Shown here in pieces: positions 1 through 13,208 of a stretch of 64,000 nt of DNA; position 1 is the first letter of the stretch; each line of letters starts with the position of its first letter. A program made the position numbers and the translations under genes. This DNA is from Sphingobacteriales bacterium TSM_CSM (GTDB lineage: Bacteria; Bacteroidota; Bacteroidia; Chitinophagales; UBA2359): contig MTCR01000143.1 in the NCBI GenBank assembly GCA_002212725.1, positions 1 through 64,000 on the forward strand. The letters run 5' to 3'. The notes beneath the pieces are model-generated. The model saw only the letters and a program-made list of their open reading frames with translations. It searched no databases and was not told the DNA's origin.

Positions 1-3000
1 TGCAATCGTAAAGGGCGGTTAATTCTTGCGGGTGGTTGAAACCGGTGGGGCAGCAAAGAACAGAGAGGGTAAGGGGATTGGTAGTTGTAGCTGCCGGATA
101 CGGGTATTCTGCCGGATATGCCCGAAGAACAGGGTGATGTGTGCCAACTTCGGCAACATCGGGAGTAAAACAAAATTCGCCCGTTTGTAAATTGTCAGAA
201 TTCATGAATATATGCTGCACAGCGTCAAATCTGTTTATTTGCACCACAATACCCCCGCTCTCAAAAACACCCCAATAGGAAACTTCATAGGGTATGCATA
301 CCTGACTGCCGGCACAAGTAGTTAATTGGTCGGAGATTTGGGGTAATGCCGTAAAAATGGGGTCCTGATTATCCGGCAAACTGCCGCCTCCTACCGGCAG
401 CGGGTCGCATTCTAACCCTTCAAGCGGGTTAAATGAAACAACCTGCCCTGTTTGTGGGTCGGTTATGGTTATGGTAAGATTTTTTATACCGGAAAACTGA
501 AACCCCGGCGTGATTACGTCATTCATTGTGGTGGTGATTGGAATGTCAAGATTGCTAATATATGTAATGCTGACAGTTGCACCCGGTATACAGTATATAT
601 AAATTGTCATCAGGAAGATGTAATTTCCATTTTCGTCAACAGAGCAGTCTGTTATATCATAATTATATGCAAACTCTGTGCAATCATACTCAAAGGAGAA
701 GCTGTTATCTGTACCGCTGTGGCTGTTATTCCACATTCCTGTTTCGGGGTTTCGGTAGGGTAAATCGGCAGCATTGATACAGGGAGGCAAATTAGTGGCA
801 GGCGGGTAATTTTGCATGGCTTCCAATGGGTTTCCTGCCATATCTGCGCCGGTAAAGCGAAGCCTGATAGTCCCCTCGCTTAATAAATCGGGAAGTATAT
901 TGCTAATGGCAAATATCCATTGGGTGTTATTTGTGCTTGTTGTGAGGTTACTTGCGTAGCCATAAGATATAACGTTTCCTAATTCATTTTCAAAACCCGC
1001 AAAATTGAGGGAGTTCATGGGTTCAGAGGCGGTAAGGGTTAAAACCAGTCCGCCGGCTAAATTAGTGCTTTGTTGCGGGCTAAGGGTTTGCAGACAAAGT
1101 TGGGTTTGGCTTTCGTTCCACTCCCAAACCTGGTGGGCTATGGTGTTGCCGGTGGCGGCATCGGTAATTTGTACCGATTGGATATAGGGGAGGTGGTTGT
1201 CGCACAGTTCGCTCTCAGGGCTGGTAGAGAGGCAGGCGGTGCAAAGTGGAGGTATAATACTTGCCCAGCAATTTAAACCAACCGCCTGCCATGCATCGCG
1301 AACAGCAATCAGTTCCGGGCTGCATACACCATCTATGGGCGGAAACAGCATATTGGCAGCAAGCGTGGTGGCTTGGCATAAATTTTCATAGCTGGGAACG
1401 TTGTTTATTAACGCCCTCAAAGTATCCAGACCTGCTATTAATACCATTTCTGCCGAATTTATGCCAAGCGGTTGCACGGTAATGTCATCGGTGCTAAAGT
1501 TTGCCCCTGTTCCACCCTCGCTGATAAGGTGAAACCATTTGACGATGATGCCCGCGTGATTGTAAATGTCGGCATCGTTTGGACTCCAGTGGTTTGCTGC
1601 ATCGTTGTAATAGAGAGCTTGGGATGGAAGGGTATTTTCGGGATGTGCCAAATCGCGCGGTAAGGTACTAACGGGGTTTATTACTACCTGATTGCCTATT
1701 GTCCAGTCAGTAGTGCCGTAAGCATAACGGCGTGCTAATACGCTGAAAATATCGCTTACCCCTTCGTGAATGGCCTTTACTTGTGGTTGGTGGGCATGAA
1801 CAGAGTCGCGATTAATATTGAACACATGTGACAATACAGCGTGTGCATACTCGTGAGAAACTACATCAGGCGAAACAAATGGGTTGAAATTTATATTGTC
1901 ACCATCGCCAAACAAAAAGACATTATAAAATGCAGAATATTGTGCTGATATATTGTTAGGTGCCGGCAGATGTGCCCATATTTCTAAACGCGATTTGTAA
2001 TCCATATTTTTATCTTTAAAATAATCTTTGGATAACTGCATAGCATAGTATAATGAATTAGAGATAGCATTTTTAACTGATACTATACTATCTGTATAAC
2101 AAAAAGTTACTTCCTGAAAATAAGCATCTCCATTAGGCAATACGGCGCTAACATCAAAAATATTAATAGTATCATTAGGTGAATAGGCAATTTCAGTTTG
2201 AGATACTATACGCGGCGATAATCTATAACGCACAGTATCGGCTAAATAGCAACTATCGGCATGAATTGTTTGGCATCCGTTGTAGAGTGTTGGCACTTCT
2301 AATAAGCGGTAATCTTCAAATGTACATACGGAATCAGTAGTACATAAGGAAGTACAATCAATTATATCGCTGTTGTTACCATTACACTTATAACAAACAT
2401 GCATCAAATCTGATGGCACATAACTATGAAATTGCCCGGATATTGCATTAACTATGTAGGTACCTGGTTTATCTCCTAATAAAAAACCGAAGGAATAAAA
2501 AATTTTGTTGTATTGAGGTAGGAGTCCGAAATTAGAAAAACGGAGCATTTGGGGTATTTTTTGTTCATGTAGCGAGTCAACTACACCGCGAAAGCGCAAT
2601 ACCACCCTCGCTGCTTCTACCTTACTTATCATACCTGTTGTGTCTATATTTAGGTTGGGGTAGTAAGTACCTGCAATACTGGTAACTCTATTATTTGAGT
2701 AGTTAAACTGAACTATATAATTTTCTACTTTAATGCCCTTATAGTATTGCTGATAACGTTCCGATTTTTTGCCTTTTGAATTATCTATACTGCCCACTTC
2801 GATAAAGCCTAAACTATCATGTTTACCCATTTCGGGCAAAAATGCATCTTTAATCAAGTCATCGGCATTTTTTGTAGTACAGTTGCCATTATCAACAAGC
2901 CGATACAAAAAGTAGTATGGATTGTTGCCGGTACTAAAATTATTTTCAGCAGGAGCAAAACAAAACTCGGCTAAATTGTCTTTTATTCTGTTAAGTTGGT

Positions 3001-3154
3001 CGCTACTTTGGGGTAGAGTCACTGGTGCCGTCTTTTGCTCAGTTTTCTGTTTGCCCTCTCGTTTTGCAAACCAACTTCCGCAGCCCAACATTGTGCCGGC
3101 GACAATAGCCAATACTAAAAACTGTATACGGGTTGATGTTAATAGTGTTTTCAT
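1..3154 (-). CDS. Thermolysin-like (M4) metallopeptidase, paralogue A, C-terminus beyond window
   Basis: At least 1051 codons are open from ATG at 3154 to the window edge, so this is the N-terminal part of a large secreted peptidase. Seen: a lipobox-like signal (TMLGCGSWFA); an FTP-type propeptide (YQQYYKGIKVEN, IDTTGMISKVEAARVVL); the zinc motif HEYAH (1841-1855, residue 434) followed by the Glu-bearing HEGVSDIFS; an M4 C-terminal half with WFHLISEGGTGA; an Ig-like domain with SEP and ADMAGN motifs; and CCPTGF near the edge, matching paralogue B. The family cleaves peptides at a zinc site. The motif that should carry thermolysin His231 reads IYNHAGI, so activity is uncertain. A T9SS tail is expected outside the window by homology with B. 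DNA at 1-466 differs from 4213-4678 at only about 15-20 positions. Only a possible -7 box (3246-3253, minus) is visible upstream. Confidence 0.85.
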   Translation of the reverse strand, partial: MKTLLTSTRIQFLVLAIVAGTMLGCGSWFAKREGKQKTEQKTAPVTLPQSSDQLNRIKDNLAEFCFAPAENNFSTGNNPYYFLYRLVDNGNCTTKNADDLIKDAFLPEMGKHDSLGFIEVGSIDNSKGKKSERYQQYYKGIKVENYIVQFNYSNNRVTSIAGTYYPNLNIDTTGMISKVEAARVVLRFRGVVDSLHEQKIPQMLRFSNFGLLPQYNKIFYSFGFLLGDKPGTYIVNAISGQFHSYVPSDLMHVCYKCNGNNSDIIDCTSLCTTDSVCTFEDYRLLEVPTLYNGCQTIHADSCYLADTVRYRLSPRIVSQTEIAYSPNDTINIFDVSAVLPNGDAYFQEVTFCYTDSIVSVKNAISNSLYYAMQLSKDYFKDKNMDYKSRLEIWAHLPAPNNISAQYSAFYNVFLFGDGDNINFNPFVSPDVVSHEYAHAVLSHVFNINRDSVHAHQPQVKAIHEGVSDIFSVLARRYAYGTTDWTIGNQVVINPVSTLPRDLAHPENTLPSQALYYNDAANHWSPNDADIYNHAGIIVKWFHLISEGGTGANFSTDDITVQPLGINSAEMVLIAGLDTLRALINNVPSYENLCQATTLAANMLFPPIDGVCSPELIAVRDAWQAVGLNCWASIIPPLCTACLSTSPESELCDNHLPYIQSVQITDAATGNTIAHQVWEWNESQTQLCLQTLSPQQSTNLAGGLVLTLTASEPMNSLNFAGFENELGNVISYGYASNLTTSTNNTQWIFAISNILPDLLSEGTIRLRFTGADMAGNPLEAMQNYPPATNLPPCINAADLPYRNPETGMWNNSHSGTDNSFSFEYDCTEFAYNYDITDCSVDENGNYIFLMTIYIYCIPGATVSITYISNLDIPITTTMNDVITPGFQFSGIKNLTITITDPQTGQVVSFNPLEGLECDPLPVGGGSLPDNQDPIFTALPQISDQLTTCAGSQVCIPYEVSYWGVFESGGIVVQINRFDAVQHIFMNSDNLQTGEFCFTPDVAEVGTHHPVLRAYPAEYPYPAATTTNPLTLSVLCCPTGFNHPQELTALYDC

Positions 3155-3380
3155 TTTAAGTGGTTTGTGTCTTTAAAAATAATGAAAGTTTTTTTTGGAT
3201 AGTAAATGCAATAAAGTTAAGGAAGATATCCTAACTGTAAACAGGCAAATATATATTGAGGGGGTATTGTGTATTTAACATTGCCATAACCAAGTTCATT
3301 TGTTGGCAGAGGAGATGTAATAACCGGCGTAATAATAAGTAATTTTGTTGATGTTGTTTCGGTTTCGGAATGTTGTTTTC

Positions 3381-3454: not shown

Positions 3455-6400
3455 TTAACCTATTTTAATAGCCACTCTCGTAATATACTGCTCGCACACA
3501 TACAGTACATAATAATAAACCCCCTGCGGCAAACCGGAAGGTGGGGAATGGGTCATGTTGTACTGCCCCTCGGCACGGAACTCCTGCTGAATGGGCGAGT
3601 CCACCAAAATGCCCTGACTGCTGAACATGGAAATGCTCACCTGCGCATCGTAGCCCACACGATAGGTAAGGGTAGTGCTGCCGCTAAATACCGTAGGGCT
3701 GACACTAAACTCATTGTCGGACAATACGCCGGCGTTGGGCGGGTAGTAAAGACTCAAATTGGCAGTATAAACCGTTTGGCAACCGGTCAGGTCGTCTGTA
3801 ATGGTAACGGTATAGCTTCCGCTGCAAAGCTGATTGCGCAAGGGGCTGTTGCAAGGCAACATCATTTCGCCGGGCGGCGGAATACAATCGCTCCAATAAT
3901 AGGTATAGCTGCCACTGCCGCCCGAAACGGACAAAGAAATCTGCCCGTTGCATTGGTCGCTGCTACAGGCGGCAATGCTGGGTTGAGAAGTGTGGGTTAC
4001 CTGCAAACCGGCATCATTTAAGTATATGCCGGTAACGGTTATGGCATCGGGTATTTGTATTATTTCATTATTAAATTCCAAGGTTAAATCATACACGCCC
4101 GCGCCCAAACAGGTAAGGGTGTGGTTGCTGTTTCCATTAACGGTAAAGTTTATACTGCAATTGTTGGTAAGGGCGGTAACGGTGGCTTCGGCGGGTTGGT
4201 ACAGGTTGCCGTTGCAATCGTACACGGCGGTTAGCTCTTGCGGGTGGTTGAAACCGGTGGGGCAGCAAAGAACAGAGAGGGTAAGGGGATTGGTAGTTGT
4301 AGCTGCCGGATACGGGTATTCTGCCGGATATGCCCGAAGAACAGGGTGATGTGTGCCAACTTCGGCAACATCGGGAGTAAAACAAAATTCACCCGTTTGT
4401 AAATTGCCAGAATTCATGAATATATGCTGCACAGCGTCAAATCTGTTTATTTGCACCACTATACCCCCACTCTCAAAAACGCCCCAATAGGAAACTTCAT
4501 AGGGTATGCATAGCTGACTGCCGGCACAAGTAGTTAATTGGTCGGAGATTTGGGGTAATGCCGTAAATATGGGATCCTGATTACCCGGCAAACTGCCGCC
4601 GCCTACCGGCAGCGGGTCGCATTCTAACCCTTCAAGCGGGTTAAATGAAACAACCTGCCCTGTTTGTGGGTCGGTTATGGTAACAAAAAGGGTTTGAATG
4701 CCTGATGTAAATTGAGTAGATGGTGTGACTAAATCATTATATGTGCCTGTGAATGTATTGCCAAAACTATTAGTATAAGTGTAGCTAAGAGTTGCTTCCG
4801 ATGTACAGTATATAAAATAGCTTATATAAAAGAGGTAATAACCATTTTCGTCAACAGTGCAATCTGTTATATCATAGTTATATGCAAGTTCTGTGCAAAC
4901 ATACTCAAAGGAGAATCTGTTATCCGTACCGCTGTGGCTGTTAGTCCACATTCCTGTTGCGGGGTTTCGGTAGGGTAAATCGGCAGCATTGATACAGGGA
5001 GGCGAATTAGTGGCAGGCGGGTAATTTTGCATGGCTTCCAATGGGTTGCCTGCCATATCTGCGCCGGTAAAGCGAAGCCTGATAGTCCCCTCGCTTAATA
5101 AATCGGGAAGTATATTGCTAATGGTAAATATCCATTGGGTGTTATTTGTGCTTGTTGTGAGGTTGCTTGCGTAGCCATAAGATATAACGTTTCCTAATTC
5201 ATTTTCAAAACCCGCAAAATTGAGGGAGTTCATGGGTTCAGAGGCGGTAAGGGTTAAAATCAGTCCGCCGGCTAAGTTAGTGCTTTGTTGCGGACTAAGG
5301 TCTTGCAGGCAAAGTTGGGTTTGGCTTTCGTTCCACTCCCAAGCCTGGTGGGCTATGGTGTTGCCGGTGGCGGCATCGGTAATTTGTACCGATTGAAGGT
5401 AGGGCAGGTGGTTGTCGCAGATGTCGGTGTCGGGTTCGGTTGGGGAGCAGGCGGTGCAAAGCGGCGGGGTAATACTTGCCCAACAATCTAATCCCACTGC
5501 CTGCCATGCATCTCGAACGGCTGTTAGTTGCGGGCTGCATACGCCGTCTGTGGGTGGATAGATGGCATTGGCAGCGAGTATAGTAGCCTGACAAAAGTCT
5601 TCGTAAGCAGGTACTGTAATAGTATCTGTAAATAACTTTTGCAAACCTGCTATCAGCACATTTTCTGCGGCATCTATACCAATTGGTTGCACGGCTATAT
5701 TGTCGGTAGCATAGTGTGCGCCTGTTCCGCCGTTGGTTATGAGGTAGAACCATTTTACTATGATGCCGGCATGGTTGTAGATATCTGCATCGTTTGAACT
5801 CCAATGATTAGCTGCGTCATTATAGTATAAAGCTTGGGGTTGTAGCGTATTTTCGGGGTGGGCTAAATCGCGGGGAAAAGTACCGGCAGGGGTTATTGCC
5901 ACTTGGTTGCCTATTGTCCAATCAACCGTACCAAAAGCATGACGACGGGCTAAAACACTGAAAATATCGCTTACTGCTTCGTGAATAGTTTTTACCTGGG
6001 GTTGATTTGTATGGACAGAGTCTCGATTAATGCTAAACACATGCGACAATACCGAGTGCGCATACTCATGGCAAACTACATCGGGCGAAGCAAACGGGTT
6101 GAAATTTAGATTATCTCCATCGCCGAATAAAAATATATCATCTATTGCAGAATACTGTGCTTCATTATTTTCGGGAATGGGCATATGCGCCCAAATTAAA
6201 TGCCGCTTTATGTCATCTATTTGCCGATTGCTGAAATAGTTTTTTGCCAGGTTCATGCCAAAAAACAAGGAAGCTGCAATAGCATTTTTAGTCGTTATAC
6301 TGTCTTTGTTGCAAAATCGCTCCTCTTGTAGCATCACAGAGCCGGCTGCTTCTACGCTTGCATCAAAGATATTGATGGTGTCATTATCCGTGATAACAAA

Positions 6401-7354
6401 TCCATCGGGTGGTACGAAACGAGGTGAAAGACGGTAGTACACAACATCATCTGTAAAACAACTGTCTATACGAATTGACTGACAATTATTGTAGAAAGTA
6501 GGCACTTCAAAAGGTAAGTTGTCTGTAAAATCAGCAGTACCGGATACTACATTACAAACATCAGTGGGGCATATAACTGCTTCGGTATTACCGGCTACAC
6601 ATTTGTGGCAAACGTTAGACCAATCGGGTTTTACATAACTGTGAAATTTCCCTGTAACGGCATTTACTATCCAAGTGCCTTTATCCGTACCCACGTAAAA
6701 CCGAAAAGAATAAAAAATCTTATTGTAACTTGGCAAGACTCCTATGTTCGAAAATCTAAGCATTGAGGGTATGACTCTGCTGTACAGACTGTCTGGAATG
6801 TTGCGCTGTTTCAACACCACCCTTGCCGCCTCTTCCTTACTTATCATGCCCGTGGTATCTATGTCAAGGTTGGGGTAGAAGGTGCCTACTAAGCGCATTA
6901 CTTTACCGTTTCTGAAGTTCAGCATAACTCGTGAATTTTCAACCGGAATGCCTTTGTAGTACTGCTTATATGTGTAATTTTCGTCCCATTGTTTGTTCCA
7001 TACCAGATTGTCTTTCCGTTCAAATGCAAGGCTATCTTCTATTCTAAACGGAAACAATTTATCTTTGCCAAACAAATCTTGCCATTTTGTGGCAATACAC
7101 TTTTGGTCACTTGTATCTAAAACATACAGAAAGTTGTAGGTTACCGTATTGTGGCTTCCTTCCAGCAATTTAGGACATAAGCCGGGGGGTTGATTTTGCA
7201 CAGTAATTGGCACATCAACAATTATCTTTTGCTCCGATTTACCTTTTTCCTCCCCCTGCCGTTTAGCAAACCAACTGCCGCAGCCCAACAGTGCGCCCGC
7301 AACCATACCTAAAACCAACACCTGAAAATATAAGGAATTTAATAACTTGCTCAT
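3455..7354 (-). CDS. Thermolysin-like (M4) metallopeptidase with T9SS tail, paralogue B
   Basis: A complete 1299-residue secreted zinc peptidase homologue. Order of parts: N-terminal hydrophobic segment ending in a lipobox-like ALLGC; FTP propeptide near residues 110-180 (YKQYYKGIPVEN, IDTTGMISKEEAARVVL); HEYAH at residue 429 (6056-6070) with downstream HEAVSDIFS supplying the third zinc ligand; M4 C-terminal half (WFYLITNGGTGA); one Ig-like domain with SEP and ADMAGN motifs; CCPTGF region; SprB-like repeat (SGSYTYYWSDC, GSYTVTITDDLTGC); and a C-terminal T9SS sorting domain (SPTVFSGSTTLTY to RVAIKIG). Full-length M4 enzymes with similar tails are common in Bacteroidota. The usual HxNSG catalytic motif is IYNHAGI, which puts Tyr at the His231 position. 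A clear promoter lies at 7480-7510 and a terminator at 3381-3427, so it is probably monocistronic. Confidence 0.9.
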   Translation of the reverse strand: MSKLLNSLYFQVLVLGMVAGALLGCGSWFAKRQGEEKGKSEQKIIVDVPITVQNQPPGLCPKLLEGSHNTVTYNFLYVLDTSDQKCIATKWQDLFGKDKLFPFRIEDSLAFERKDNLVWNKQWDENYTYKQYYKGIPVENSRVMLNFRNGKVMRLVGTFYPNLDIDTTGMISKEEAARVVLKQRNIPDSLYSRVIPSMLRFSNIGVLPSYNKIFYSFRFYVGTDKGTWIVNAVTGKFHSYVKPDWSNVCHKCVAGNTEAVICPTDVCNVVSGTADFTDNLPFEVPTFYNNCQSIRIDSCFTDDVVYYRLSPRFVPPDGFVITDNDTINIFDASVEAAGSVMLQEERFCNKDSITTKNAIAASLFFGMNLAKNYFSNRQIDDIKRHLIWAHMPIPENNEAQYSAIDDIFLFGDGDNLNFNPFASPDVVCHEYAHSVLSHVFSINRDSVHTNQPQVKTIHEAVSDIFSVLARRHAFGTVDWTIGNQVAITPAGTFPRDLAHPENTLQPQALYYNDAANHWSSNDADIYNHAGIIVKWFYLITNGGTGAHYATDNIAVQPIGIDAAENVLIAGLQKLFTDTITVPAYEDFCQATILAANAIYPPTDGVCSPQLTAVRDAWQAVGLDCWASITPPLCTACSPTEPDTDICDNHLPYLQSVQITDAATGNTIAHQAWEWNESQTQLCLQDLSPQQSTNLAGGLILTLTASEPMNSLNFAGFENELGNVISYGYASNLTTSTNNTQWIFTISNILPDLLSEGTIRLRFTGADMAGNPLEAMQNYPPATNSPPCINAADLPYRNPATGMWTNSHSGTDNRFSFEYVCTELAYNYDITDCTVDENGYYLFYISYFIYCTSEATLSYTYTNSFGNTFTGTYNDLVTPSTQFTSGIQTLFVTITDPQTGQVVSFNPLEGLECDPLPVGGGSLPGNQDPIFTALPQISDQLTTCAGSQLCIPYEVSYWGVFESGGIVVQINRFDAVQHIFMNSGNLQTGEFCFTPDVAEVGTHHPVLRAYPAEYPYPAATTTNPLTLSVLCCPTGFNHPQELTAVYDCNGNLYQPAEATVTALTNNCSINFTVNGNSNHTLTCLGAGVYDLTLEFNNEIIQIPDAITVTGIYLNDAGLQVTHTSQPSIAACSSDQCNGQISLSVSGGSGSYTYYWSDCIPPPGEMMLPCNSPLRNQLCSGSYTVTITDDLTGCQTVYTANLSLYYPPNAGVLSDNEFSVSPTVFSGSTTLTYRVGYDAQVSISMFSSQGILVDSPIQQEFRAEGQYNMTHSPPSGLPQGVYYYVLYVCEQYITRVAIKIG

Positions 7355-7516
7355 AATAAATTGTTTTTGCGTTTAAAAAAATGATGATAACTTATTTTTT
7401 ACCTCCCGAAACACAAAAACGCTACGGCGGATGCCTTACCCGCCGGCAGGCTGGAAATGCAAACAAAGGTTTATGTTTACAAATATACCGGTTTGGTTTT
7501 AATTTTACAAGTTTTT
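7352..7516 (-). repeat. Shared promoter-leader segment, copy 1
   Basis: About 165 bp from the start codon of paralogue B upstream is nearly identical to 13206-13370, which precedes the split paralogue C. It contains the promoter and a roughly 115-nt untranslated leader. Only scattered substitutions and one or two single-base indels separate the copies. Confidence 0.85.
7480..7510 (-). promoter_or_regulatory. Bacteroidota-type promoter for M4 paralogue B
   Basis: On the minus strand, TTG (7510-7508) is followed after 20 nt by TATATTTG (7487-7480). This matches the Bacteroidota -33/-7 consensus TTTG and TAnnTTTG with normal spacing. Transcription would begin near 7473, giving a leader of roughly 115-120 nt before the ATG at 7354. 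Confidence 0.65.
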
Positions 7517-7535
7517 TTGCGCAACAAATTTACCC

Positions 7536-7582
7536 AAAAAAGAAACAGCCGAAGGGGACGTTTCCTCCTTCGGCTGTTTCTT
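7536..7582 (-). terminator. Strong intrinsic terminator after M4 paralogue C
   Basis: A perfect 16-bp inverted repeat (7540-7555 with 7567-7582) encloses an 11-nt loop. On the minus strand it is followed by a T-run (7541-7536 region). It sits 27 nt past the stop of the C-terminal half of paralogue C. Confidence 0.85.
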
Positions 7583-7608
7583 GCAATGTAACGGTTGGTA
7601 TTATTGTT

Positions 7609-10600
7609 TTAATACACCTTTACCGCCACCCGTGTAAGCGGCTCTTCGCAAACATACAGCACATAAAAATAAATACCTTTCGGCAAGCCTGCCGGCGGGG
7701 AATGGGTCATGTTGTACTGCCCTTCGGCACGGAACTCCTGCTGAATGGGCGAGTCCACCAAAATACCTTGGCCATTGAACATAGAAATGCTCACTTGCGC
7801 ATCGTATCCTACCCGATAAGTAAGAGTAGTACTACCGCTAAATACCGTAGGGCTGACACTAAACTCATTGTCGGATAAAACGCCGGCGTTGGCAGGATAG
7901 TAAAGACTCACATTGGCAGTATAAACCGTTTCGCAACCGGTCATGTCGTCGGTAATGGTAACGGTATATGTTCCGGCACAAAGGTTGTTGCGTAAAGGAA
8001 TGTTGCAAGGCATCATTTCTTCGGGATCCGGAAAACAATCGCTCCATTGGTAACTATAATTGCCGCTTCCGCCTGAAACTGATAAAGAAATTTGTCCGTT
8101 GCATTGATCGCTGCTACAGGCGGCAAGACTTGGTTGGGCAGTGTGTGTTATTTCAAGATTGTCATCCACCAAATAGATGCCTGCAACCGTAATGGCATTT
8201 TCAAATTGATAAGTTTGATTGTTGAACGAAAGGGTGAGGTCATAAACTCCTTCGCCAAGATGACTGAGGGTGTGGTTAGTGCTGCCGTTCAGGGTAAAGT
8301 TGAGGTTGCAGCCGCCGGTGAGTGCGGTAACGGTAGCTTCTGCGGGTTGGTAGAGGTTGCCGTTGCAGTCGTAAACGGCTTGCAATTCTTGCGGATAGCC
8401 GAAACCGGTGGGGCAGCAGAGTACGGAGAGGGTGAGGTGATGTACCGATTTATTGCGTTCCGGTTGGTTATCGTAAGCAGTTAAAACAACATCATGTACA
8501 CCTATATCGGATTGTAAAGGGGTAAAACAAAATGTGCCGCTTGCTATGGGTCCATGAGAATAAATATTATGATAATCAAAATGAAGCGTTTCCGATTCAG
8601 CTTTTACCATGATTAGATCATCACTATCTTCAAAAGTATAGGGAATACAAATTTGTTCTGCATCAGAACAATCTTGTATGAATGGAACCGATACCAAGTT
8701 TGGTGCAAGAAAGTTCGTATTCGAAGGTGTATTAGTAGAAACTATAAAATCGCAAGTTACTGATTGTTGCCAGTTAGCACCGCTGTTGTCAGAAATTATA
8801 AATGTAGCTTCATAGCTGTTATCAGGTAAAATGGCATAAAGAACTACTGGATTTGGTGGAAATTGAATTTGTTGGAACGGAATACTATTGTCTTCACCTG
8901 CTAAACCTACAAAGGTTGCTGTCCCTTCATACCCAATGATAATGTTTAATGCCCATTCTCCGTCATCTAACGGGGAACAACTCATTTCTAATAAGGTATA
9001 GTTAAATCCGTTAGAGTCGAAACACCATATTGTGCCGCCGATAGATTGTTGGCAACCATTAGCATCGGTTACAAATATATCATAATACCCGCCGGGTAAT
9101 GGCTCAGTAAACTGTGCCTCAATAAAAGTATTGTTAGTTGTTTGGAGAGGTCCTGCAAGAACACTGTATGTAAATGGAGCAGTACCATTGGTCATTTCCC
9201 ATGTTATAGTTGCTACACCTGTATTTTGATTGCAGTTTTGAGCAATTTCTGAAATGGACATTGATCCAATACATTCTGAAGAGCTGTTTACTGTTATAGT
9301 TTGGAAGTAGGAAACCTCGTATCCCAGCACATTATTCCAAACTGTCAGGGTAATGGTTTTGGTTCCGGGCGAAGTCCACTGCACGGTATATTCTTGGAGG
9401 CTGATGTCTGTTAGGGGTGAAAGGGATGCCCCTTCGCCAAAATTCCACGAGTAGGTCAAGTCGCCGTCTATAGGCTCCGAAGACTGGTTGACAACGGTTA
9501 TGTCCGTATTCGTACAAAGGGCGGCGGAAACGGGGGCACCGCAGGGCATTTGAATCTCAAAACTGACAGTAAAACAATCTGTTACAGATGATCGGAAGCC
9601 TTCCTGATCTTGACAAAGGTTAATATTGAGCGTATGCAGCCGGTCGCTGTCGGGGCTTTCGGGTGGTTGCCAGTTTCCGGTTTCGGTTTTTTGGGGTATG
9701 TCGGCGGCATCGAAACAAACGGTTACGGGGTTGAAAGACGGGTAATCCGTCAAATTTTCAAGGCTGTTTCCGGCAAGGTCCGTACCCGAAAAAACCAAAG
9801 CATACACATCGGGTATAAGGAAAGGCGCATCGGTCAGCAGTTGTACGGAGCAGGTATATTCTGTTTGGTCTGTATCGGCATTGGTTGTTACCGAAAAATA
9901 GTCATCGGCGGCAAGCAGGTTTCCGTTGTAAAACAACCCGTCGAAAGAAAGGGTTTGCAGGGGTTCGGAGGCGGTAACTTGTAGGGTGATGCCATCGGAA
10001 AGGTCGGTAGATTGAGGGGCAGAAAGCATTTCGAGGCAGTATTGCCCGGCGGGTCCGTCATATTGCCAGCTTTGATGTGCAAGGGTTTCGGAGGTAGCGG
10101 GGTTTACAATCTGTACCGATTGAATATAAGGCAGGTGGTTGTCGCAGATGTCGGTGTCGGGCAAATCGGGGGAACAGGCATACAGGTTCATTTTATGAAT
10201 TTCATCGGTTCCTTGCGGTGCGGTAGTTGGCATCCAAGGTGCTGTGGGAGAAAATCGCTGCGGAAGATCGTTATAATTTAGACATGGAGGTGTGCCGGTA
10301 ACCATATTATGCATTGACAACAATTCGTTACCTGCCATATCATGCCCGCTGAAAACAAAGGCTACCACCTCTCCTGCAAGTACTAAAGAAGCATCTATGG
10401 TTATAGTGGCTGTCCAAATGGTGGGATTAGAAGTAGTGACGGCAGATGTAAAGCCTGTACTAATAAGACCTGCGCCGCTTGGTTTAAAGCCCAAAAAGGA
10501 AAAATCGGACAAAGGTTCGCTGCTTGTAACTTCAAGTTGAAATGTTTGCCCTGCGCCAACAATTAAACTTTGCGGTGCGGCGGCAACATCTGTTAAACAT

Positions 10601-11571
10601 AATTTGCCATTAACGGGGTTTATTTGCCAGTGTTTATGATATTTAATTGCGCCGCTACTGTTGGTAACTTTTAGCTCTTTAATGTAGGGTTTGGTTATAT
10701 CGCAGGTTGCCCATTCTGCTTGCCAGTTATCTATGCCTACCGCCCGCCATGCCTCCCGCACGGCAAGTGCTTCGGCAGAGCAAGCACCATACAACTGCCC
10801 TGCTACAGTAAGCGTAGCTCTTGCTATGCCTGGGTAGTTTTGGTTGTCAATATCATTCAGTCCCCATGAATCAAGATCGGTAATAATGGTAGTAAACACT
10901 TCAAGCAGTATTTTAGCTACTTTTTCAGCGCTTATTGCCGGCACGTTAAATGTAGTTCCCGAAGGTACATTCCTGCTCGGAGTAGAACTGGGATATGAGG
11001 CGCTAAATCCGTCATCAACCGTGCCTGTATATCCTGTTGCAAGCATGTAAAACCAGTAACTGAGTACATGCGAATTGGCGTAACGCAGCCCGTCGCTTGC
11101 TGTTGTGGCGGCATTCCAATATTGTCCGCCATAAGTAGTGGGGTTGCTATATAATTTGGGGGTGTTTAAAGCCCGTAGCGTACCAACGGATTCGCCTATG
11201 TTCCAGTCTAATTGCTTAATGGTACTCTGAACCATAATACCCATAATATCGCAAAAACTTTCTACAAGTGCGCCGTTTTCAATTGGTTCGTTATTACATA
11301 CTACATTAGCCCCCTTTGCATTGATGGCATGCGCGTATTCATGCGCCATTATGTCTAAATCTACCATAGGCAGCGATCCATTGCCATTACTCATTCTTAT
11401 CCGAATTTTATTATCGGATGCCAGACTTGTAAGATTGGTAGCGGCATTAAGTTCAAAATTATCTAACAAACATAACTCAATAAGCGGGTTGCCGGCGGTA
11501 AATTGGTTAACGCCCGAAGAAGGGGCGCTTGGAAGCGATAGATTGATGGGAGTGGGGGCAGCCGGCGGCAC
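7609..11571 (-). CDS. C-terminal part of split M4 metallopeptidase (paralogue C): catalytic, Ig-like, PKD and T9SS domains
   Basis: This frame holds the zinc site HEYAH (11329-11343), the third ligand region (LVESFCDIMG), the M4 C-terminal half (RYANSHVLSYWFYML), two Ig-like domains with SEP and D(L/M)AGN motifs, a PKD-like region (SWNFGEGASLSP), CCPTGF, a SprB-like repeat (SGNYSYQWSDC) and a T9SS tail ending LTRVAVKVY. The first plausible initiator here is a GTG inside the peptidase domain, with no signal peptide. The frame stays open upstream to 11613, so it is the continuation of the gene starting at 13208 after a -1 shift. Read together the product would be about 1866 residues. It is either a recently broken gene or one that needs frameshifting. 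The residue at the His231 position appears to be Tyr (RYANSH). Confidence 0.8.
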   Translation of the reverse strand: MPPAAPTPINLSLPSAPSSGVNQFTAGNPLIELCLLDNFELNAATNLTSLASDNKIRIRMSNGNGSLPMVDLDIMAHEYAHAINAKGANVVCNNEPIENGALVESFCDIMGIMVQSTIKQLDWNIGESVGTLRALNTPKLYSNPTTYGGQYWNAATTASDGLRYANSHVLSYWFYMLATGYTGTVDDGFSASYPSSTPSRNVPSGTTFNVPAISAEKVAKILLEVFTTIITDLDSWGLNDIDNQNYPGIARATLTVAGQLYGACSAEALAVREAWRAVGIDNWQAEWATCDITKPYIKELKVTNSSGAIKYHKHWQINPVNGKLCLTDVAAAPQSLIVGAGQTFQLEVTSSEPLSDFSFLGFKPSGAGLISTGFTSAVTTSNPTIWTATITIDASLVLAGEVVAFVFSGHDMAGNELLSMHNMVTGTPPCLNYNDLPQRFSPTAPWMPTTAPQGTDEIHKMNLYACSPDLPDTDICDNHLPYIQSVQIVNPATSETLAHQSWQYDGPAGQYCLEMLSAPQSTDLSDGITLQVTASEPLQTLSFDGLFYNGNLLAADDYFSVTTNADTDQTEYTCSVQLLTDAPFLIPDVYALVFSGTDLAGNSLENLTDYPSFNPVTVCFDAADIPQKTETGNWQPPESPDSDRLHTLNINLCQDQEGFRSSVTDCFTVSFEIQMPCGAPVSAALCTNTDITVVNQSSEPIDGDLTYSWNFGEGASLSPLTDISLQEYTVQWTSPGTKTITLTVWNNVLGYEVSYFQTITVNSSSECIGSMSISEIAQNCNQNTGVATITWEMTNGTAPFTYSVLAGPLQTTNNTFIEAQFTEPLPGGYYDIFVTDANGCQQSIGGTIWCFDSNGFNYTLLEMSCSPLDDGEWALNIIIGYEGTATFVGLAGEDNSIPFQQIQFPPNPVVLYAILPDNSYEATFIISDNSGANWQQSVTCDFIVSTNTPSNTNFLAPNLVSVPFIQDCSDAEQICIPYTFEDSDDLIMVKAESETLHFDYHNIYSHGPIASGTFCFTPLQSDIGVHDVVLTAYDNQPERNKSVHHLTLSVLCCPTGFGYPQELQAVYDCNGNLYQPAEATVTALTGGCNLNFTLNGSTNHTLSHLGEGVYDLTLSFNNQTYQFENAITVAGIYLVDDNLEITHTAQPSLAACSSDQCNGQISLSVSGGSGNYSYQWSDCFPDPEEMMPCNIPLRNNLCAGTYTVTITDDMTGCETVYTANVSLYYPANAGVLSDNEFSVSPTVFSGSTTLTYRVGYDAQVSISMFNGQGILVDSPIQQEFRAEGQYNMTHSPPAGLPKGIYFYVLYVCEEPLTRVAVKVY

Positions 11572-11588
11572 AGTAGTAAAGTAGCAAT

Positions 11589-13208
11589 TTATTGAACTTG
11601 GGTTGCTAAAAAATTATGAACGTGCTCTATAGCCCAATATGCTGCTTCAAGCATGGGTATTTCATTGGGGCAATCGGGGTAATTGAGCCGCAAATTTAGG
11701 ATGGTGTATTTTCCGTCTTTTTTAACCAATATGGCATAGTTGCCCGGCGGCAACAAATTGCCGTTGTTTAACTGTTCTGCCACATTAAAAGCAGTAGAAC
11801 CCGAAGGAAAAGGGTAATAAACATTGCCGCCAAATTGTGGGGTGGCAATGGGTTCGCTAATCATTACTTCGGCGTTGGCGGCACTGGTCATGTTTAACAC
11901 AATATTGCCAAATGAATAGCAGGTAACGGGGCTTAGGGCAGGCGTAACGGTAAAACCACCTTGCGTACCTATGGCTATAGCCTGCGGATAAGCGCAGCCG
12001 GTAGGGTTATGTATGATGGTTACGGTGTGCAAACCTGCGCTTAAACCCGATAGAACGGAACCGCTTGTTCCCGACAAAGCGCCGGTCATGGCATAGTTGT
12101 TGGCAAAACCGCCGGGCGGAGCAAAGGTAATTGTTGCCTGCCCGTCGGCAACGCCCCAAGCGCTGGGCAATATGCTGAAATTGAGTGATATGCCCGGAGG
12201 GGCTTCTGCGCCACCGTCAGACCACCAATAATACCGTTTTGAATTACTGATAAAGGTAAAGTTATCTGAATTGGCATAAGCCTCAATGCGATGTATAGCA
12301 TTGTCTTGTTTCAGATGGTACAATTTACAGTTGCCAAAATTGCAGGAACTCAGCCTTATTTGCTTCTCATCGGGATATTGGGTAAAATAAGGCAAATCGT
12401 TGTCATACCAGAGTGTTACAGGGTAATCCGGCTCATCGTCAACAGGGTTGCAGGGGGTGGTTATAAAATTACTGTTGTTAAAACTTTCTAGCCCTCTTAT
12501 ATTACCGGTTACAACGTCCACATACATATATTGGTCGCCTAAATTAACTTTGTGGCAGAGGTAAATATAATTGTTGGTACCCGGACGTAAGTAGTAGGCT
12601 AATTTAGTAACAGGTAGCTTTATTGGCGGAGTACGTTTCAAGTATCTAATATAATATTTAGTTGCAGAATCAATGGCTATCTCCGGGCTTACCTGTATAT
12701 TTTCGGGTTCGCCTTTGGGGTAATAGTAACCCACTCTTGCCCCTCTGCTACAACCGGTGCTATCTTTTTCAAATCCAACCAGACTATGGGCATCAATTCT
12801 TATGCCTTTGTAGTACATCCAGTAATGAGGGTAGCCTGTTATGTCTTTCCAGTATTCTACGGTAAAATCGGAAGGAATGCCAAAAAATTGTTTGAACTCA
12901 GGTTTTGTAAAGGCTGTTTCATAGGTTAGATCGGGTCTAAGTTTGCACTTGGCAGTATCAAAGTGAAAAATGCAAGTGCCAAGCGTATCACCTTTAAATG
13001 GCAATCTGCGAAACGAATACATAGTATAACACTCTTTTTTAACCAGCAAGGAGTCCAATGGAATGAGGCGGGTATTCGTGTTAGCGGTTTTTGCCGACGT
13101 CGAGTCTTTACGTTTACCGGCAAACCAACTGCCGCAGCCCAACAGCGCGCCGGCAACCATACTCAAAACCAATACCTGAAAATATAAAAAAAATGATAAC
13201 CTTCTCAT
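11589..13208 (-). CDS. N-terminal part of split M4 metallopeptidase (paralogue C): signal, propeptide and insert
   Basis: 539 residues beginning with a signal/lipobox region like paralogues A and B (ALLGCGSWFAGKR), then an FTP-like propeptide (YWMYYKGIRIDAHS) and a SprB-like insert (LSAGLHTVTIIHNPTGC) not seen in A or B. It ends in the first helix of the peptidase domain (EAAYWAIEHVHNF). The stop at 11591-11589 comes before the zinc site. Five codons upstream of the stop, the minus strand reads T TTT TTA in frame (11613-11607). Slipping back one base there continues into the frame below, and the restored HNFFSNP aligns with KNYFSNR of paralogue B. On its own this product cannot be a peptidase. 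Promoter: 13334-13364. Confidence 0.8.
   Translation of the reverse strand: MRRLSFFLYFQVLVLSMVAGALLGCGSWFAGKRKDSTSAKTANTNTRLIPLDSLLVKKECYTMYSFRRLPFKGDTLGTCIFHFDTAKCKLRPDLTYETAFTKPEFKQFFGIPSDFTVEYWKDITGYPHYWMYYKGIRIDAHSLVGFEKDSTGCSRGARVGYYYPKGEPENIQVSPEIAIDSATKYYIRYLKRTPPIKLPVTKLAYYLRPGTNNYIYLCHKVNLGDQYMYVDVVTGNIRGLESFNNSNFITTPCNPVDDEPDYPVTLWYDNDLPYFTQYPDEKQIRLSSCNFGNCKLYHLKQDNAIHRIEAYANSDNFTFISNSKRYYWWSDGGAEAPPGISLNFSILPSAWGVADGQATITFAPPGGFANNYAMTGALSGTSGSVLSGLSAGLHTVTIIHNPTGCAYPQAIAIGTQGGFTVTPALSPVTCYSFGNIVLNMTSAANAEVMISEPIATPQFGGNVYYPFPSGSTAFNVAEQLNNGNLLPPGNYAILVKKDGKYTILNLRLNYPDCPNEIPMLEAAYWAIEHVHNFLATQVQ
11607..11613 (-). other. Frame-change site: T TTT TTA heptamer in M4 paralogue C
   Basis: On the minus strand the zero-frame codons are AAT TTT TTA GCA. 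The heptamer T TTT TTA fits X XXY YYZ, the slippery pattern used for -1 frameshifting (the HIV-1 gag-pol site has the same bases). A -1 shift here joins the 539-residue N-terminal part to the peptidase and T9SS part without a stop. The alternative is loss of one T from an ancestral run of seven, in the cell or in the assembly. Confidence 0.6.

Follow-up and report, generated by a model that had tools for sequence, protein, structure and literature searches.

The locus analyzed here raises the question of whether a gene for a very large M4-type metallopeptidase, in which the reading frame changes at a slippery heptamer, is translated by way of programmed -1 frameshifting or has simply been broken by the loss of a base from a homopolymer. 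The gene lies on the minus strand of the window (the whole stretch of 64,000 nucleotides that was analyzed), next to two related genes that served for comparison. The relevant features, with their window coordinates, are the following.

11589..13208, minus strand: upstream piece, 539 aa, with a lipobox-like leader (AGALLGC), a genus-specific N-terminal region, an SprB-like insert and the start of the M4 N-terminal domain
11607..11613, minus strand: T_TTT_TTA heptamer (six-T run at 11613-11608) in zero-frame phase, the site of the frame change
7609..11607, minus strand: downstream piece, -1 frame, 1332 codons, with the M4 catalytic domain, Ig/PKD-like and SprB-repeat modules and a T9SS-like C-terminal tail
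3455..7354, minus strand: paralogue B, intact in a single frame, 1299 aa
1..3330 (upper end approximate), minus strand: paralogue A, single frame, at least 1057 codons, running off the start of the window

Position of the frame change

The upstream open reading frame begins with an ATG at 13208 and comprises 539 codons up to a zero-frame TAA at 11591-11589. The heptamer TTTTTTA is located at offset 1595 of this frame (11613-11607), and its first base is the third position of a codon, so that TTT and TTA are zero-frame codons. In the -1 frame, a TAA starting at 11616, three bases before the heptamer, is followed by 1332 open codons down to 7609. Both frames are open together over just about 22-26 nt, an overlap that includes the T-run. 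This narrow interval and the alignment of HNF/FSN with the sequences of the paralogue and the homologues place the frame change in the T-run or immediately next to it. This agrees with the earlier note on this DNA, which placed the shift at the same run by aligning the restored HNFFSNP with KNYFSNR of paralogue B. Moreover, a Markov model that tracks the reading frame, for which the contig minus the split gene served as training data and which was not given the site, put the transition at 11605; ahead of the site the zero frame shows a positive coding signal, directly after it the -1 frame does, and the other frames are negative. Thus, the split, the stop codon and the long open -1 frame described in the earlier note are all confirmed. 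The rest of the 5.6 kb gene is open and has a normal coding signal, the pattern to be expected of a young or artefactual interruption.

Domains, paralogues and homologues of the split gene

The downstream piece contains the alpha-helical domain of M4 peptidases (Peptidase_M4_C, 69 bits against a cut-off of 24.4), and its HEYAH and ESFCD motifs align with the zinc site of thermolysin, with the HEXXH and ExxxD ligands present. The C-terminal tail matches Por_Secre_tail, the T9SS type A sorting domain, at 20.0 against a cut-off of 23, that is, just below threshold. Accordingly, the zinc site and T9SS tail claimed earlier are both recovered, with the caveats that the tail is sub-threshold and that the position of the catalytic His231 of thermolysin is occupied by Tyr. 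The same Tyr is found in paralogues A and B, in C152 and in C20 of the sister species G019, whereas the other order-level homologues that were aligned have His. In comparison with the thermolysin family M4 peptidases of Bacteroidetes that carry a T9SS tail, the split gene is alike in the zinc ligands, the Peptidase_M4_C match and the T9SS-like tail, and it differs in this Tyr, in the SprB-like insert within the N-terminal peptidase domain and in the interrupted frame. The combination of retained HEXXH and ExxxD with Tyr for His231 recurs in the M4-like genes of the genus (window 1-3330, 3455-7354 and 7609-11607, minus strand; L040, L036), and, judging from these residues, peptidase activity could possibly be altered or lost throughout this subfamily.

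In the upstream piece, the opening portion of the peptidase domain is represented by AAYWAIEHVHNF, which aligns with the homologue segments AHWALQQAWDYL and DAHWGAEKTYDF. The split falls inside the N-terminal domain of the peptidase, about 90 residues before HEXXH, so that neither piece is likely to be a natural protein by itself. The prediction that the upstream frame yields a short, secreted, propeptide-like product holds only in part: the leader is lipoprotein-like, the 539-aa product has no match to Pfam FTP, and it includes the SprB-like insert as well as the beginning of the peptidase domain. The insert itself (residues ~336-445; window 11870-12200, minus strand) interrupts the M4 peptidase domain in its N-terminal part, and similar sequences occur in many large surface proteins throughout the class. 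The co-occurrence of a lipobox-like LLGC leader (window 13208-13110 and 7354-7250) with a T9SS-like tail would be an unusual combination if both signals were used.

The designation of the split gene as a third paralogue, C, beside A and B applies to its ends better than to its core. The parts shared with A and B are mainly the leader and the C-terminal module; the M4 domain is closer to those of ordinary M4 peptidases from the order (42% with L048) than to those of the two paralogues (32-34%). Among the paralogues (window 3455-13208; L034-L041), similarity at the DNA level is seen in the first ~180 nt, encoding the AGALLGC leader, and in the last ~800 nt, encoding the C-terminal module, and the middle portions are unrelated or distant, as if cassettes had been exchanged between constant ends.

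With respect to the frame in relatives, the equivalent position is open in a single frame in all of the approximately 32 inspected M4 homologues that span it, namely A and B of the window, one gene from another part of the genome, one from the sister species and almost thirty from the order. In one homologue (L058), T_TTT_TTA stands in frame among the 110 codons that precede the zinc site and the frame is unbroken, which shows that an ordinary reading frame can accommodate the motif. The closest sequences, two copies of the N-terminal part in G019, the nearest relative, of the same genus (68-69% protein identity), are on contigs that both stop at about residue 231, before the site. No orthologue spanning the site was found among 3 genomes of the genus, 20 of the family, 398 of the order and 395 of the class, or among GTDB contigs, viral contigs searched by DNA pattern, and plasmids. 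Over the 232 comparable codons of the N-terminal part, dN/dS against one of the two G019 copies is 0.26, a signature of purifying selection which suggests that the gene was functional and under selection until recently. The two G019 copies (C58 and C132; L035 start, L034 end) end alike at the contig ends, with the last 150 nt near-identical, which suggests that a recent duplication or conversion event caused the assembly to break there.

Recoding, switching and other readings of the break

The seven bases at the break are, as the earlier note observed, identical to the slip site of HIV-1 gag-pol (U_UUU_UUA) and stand in the same phase to the zero frame. Such motifs are common in this genome. 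In-frame T_TTT_TTA occurs 17 times across 127 kb of coding sequence from this contig, twice in the split ORF itself, and in-frame X_XXY_YYZ heptamers of all kinds number 340, or 0.8% of codons; from this contig frequency, the chance of encountering one within the overlap of ~7 codons is about 5-6% (about one in eighteen). Furthermore, because both a homopolymer indel and recoding predict a run at the break, the coincidence does not discriminate between them, and the slippery heptamer by itself is weak evidence of programming.

Under programmed -1 frameshifting at T_TTT_TTA, most ribosomes would terminate after 539 aa and a fraction would re-pair in the -1 frame to produce the full surface peptidase. 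The correct phase of the heptamer, its placement in the frame overlap and the completely open downstream frame are all compatible with this mechanism, and a long branched hairpin can be drawn from about 7 nt past the motif under the rules used for bacterial candidates (PMC4066793). However, 22 of 80 random positions within the gene, taken as background, gave a hairpin at least as good as this one (134 nt, -23.9 kcal/mol), whose 0.18 kcal/mol per nt compares poorly with the published averages, which are 0.32 in gene clusters and 0.45 in IS3 elements (PMC4066793). A stem-loop, for which the earlier note proposed to look, did not emerge from comparison with shuffled sequences either: for downstream segments of 61, 81 and 101 nt and a 95-nt segment around the site, local folds were near or weaker than the shuffles (z of +1.7, +1.0, -0.3 and +0.6), so that, with pseudoknot-free folds, neither shuffles nor random positions revealed a stimulatory structure 4-10 nt downstream that was better than background. 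A Shine-Dalgarno-like element was likewise not found 6-17 nt upstream of the heptamer. The efficient slip motifs of E. coli favor H_HH.U_UU.Y, in which U-run heptamers end in a pyrimidine rather than A; U_UUU_UUA is outside these motifs and also outside the list, in the same study, of under-represented motifs with over 0.10% slip without a stimulator (PMC4066793). Among the homologues inspected there is also no conserved cluster of split genes, which the GeneTack approach requires (PMC3711429). In contrast to the HIV-1 site, then, the motif here was found without an adjacent stimulatory stem-loop, without conservation among the inspected homologues and in a genome where it is common. Given that some prokaryotic slip sites have no downstream structure (PMC4066793) and that the folds considered were pseudoknot-free, the null folding results lower the probability of programming without abolishing it; we consider programmed frameshifting distinctly unlikely. 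Its more specific variant, in which low-efficiency slippage without a strong stimulator would determine how much of a very large T9SS surface peptidase is made in this uncultured Bacteroidetes-type genus, appears very unlikely.

The same T-run could, conceivably, gain or lose a base at replication and thereby switch the surface peptidase on and off. The presence of a homopolymer at the break in a surface protein gene would fit such phase variation, secreted and surface genes being typical phase-variable loci (PMC3711429), but six Ts make a short run, below the survey minimum of 7 nt (PMC3711429), and the coding sequence of the contig contains 121 T-runs and 205 A-runs of at least six, some of 8-9, that are unbroken; we regard this scenario as highly improbable. 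Transcriptional slippage, by which the frame would be restored in part of the mRNA, would likewise account for the coincidence of homopolymer and frame change. A large proportion of bacterial genomes show evident selection against slippage once A/T runs reach about nine, and in some a run of eight is noted as productive (PMC1088944); a run of six falls below these lengths, which renders this mechanism extremely improbable. Finally, the two frames could be genuine separate genes, the second translated by coupling from a GTG at 11571, the first in-frame start of the downstream piece, only 18 nt past the upstream stop. Against this reading stand the location of the split within a single peptidase domain, the coding signal of the second frame, which begins at 11607, ahead of any start, and the composition of the second product, which would bear a T9SS-like tail and no signal peptide; its likelihood is negligible.

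A homopolymer indel as the probable cause

We therefore favor an ordinary frameshift through loss of a homopolymer base, whether by recent mutation or by consensus error, over a programmed HIV-like slip, with a probability of roughly 0.86. The ancestral state would have been a single continuous frame for a secreted M4-type metallopeptidase, from which one base of a short T homopolymer was probably lost; translation would now stop five codons past the run, and no full peptidase would be made. The break falls at an indel-prone site, the six-T run, and the preference of the earlier note for homopolymer loss is supported by the missing stimulator, the common heptamer, the single-frame homologues and the isolation of the break in the contig. 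In the GeneTack survey, singleton frameshifts with single-frame homologues were attributed to indel mutation or sequencing error (PMC3711429). The split gene, with one frame change at a site for which no conservation was seen in the inspected homologues, differs in no tested feature from this class of hypothetical pseudogenes or sequencing errors, and by the same criteria it belongs there and not with the conserved recoding clusters.

Mutation and consensus error are the same class of event, a homopolymer indel. A genuine, recent loss-of-function mutation, marking a young pseudogene, has about an even chance of being the cause, and an error in the assembled consensus is a serious though less probable possibility. 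The frame model detected no other unexplained frame break in 144 kb of the contig despite about 340 homopolymers of six or more in its coding sequence, which suggests that the assembly (178 contigs, 88% complete) is not generally ridden with indels and makes a real mutation somewhat more likely. In a multi-copy family, moreover, losing one member is cheap. A second candidate homopolymer break, at a G8 run (contig position 138304), was rejected: a nuclease/ATPase-like gene ends normally there and a new ATG follows, as in two adjacent genes. This run (L045:14291-14306; contig 138291-138306) is located at the extreme end of the large nuclease/ATPase-like gene, immediately ahead of the following start codon; the junction is ordinary, but the length of the run may possibly vary.

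As it stands, then, the split gene is most probably an ordinary frameshifted gene and in itself matters little. It does offer a warning: a frame break that lies next to a slippery heptamer says little in favor of recoding, since heptamers of this kind occur often and homopolymer indels will put breaks there in any case. Should the frameshift nevertheless be programmed, a T9SS substrate of cellular origin would be subject to recoding, which would be unusual.
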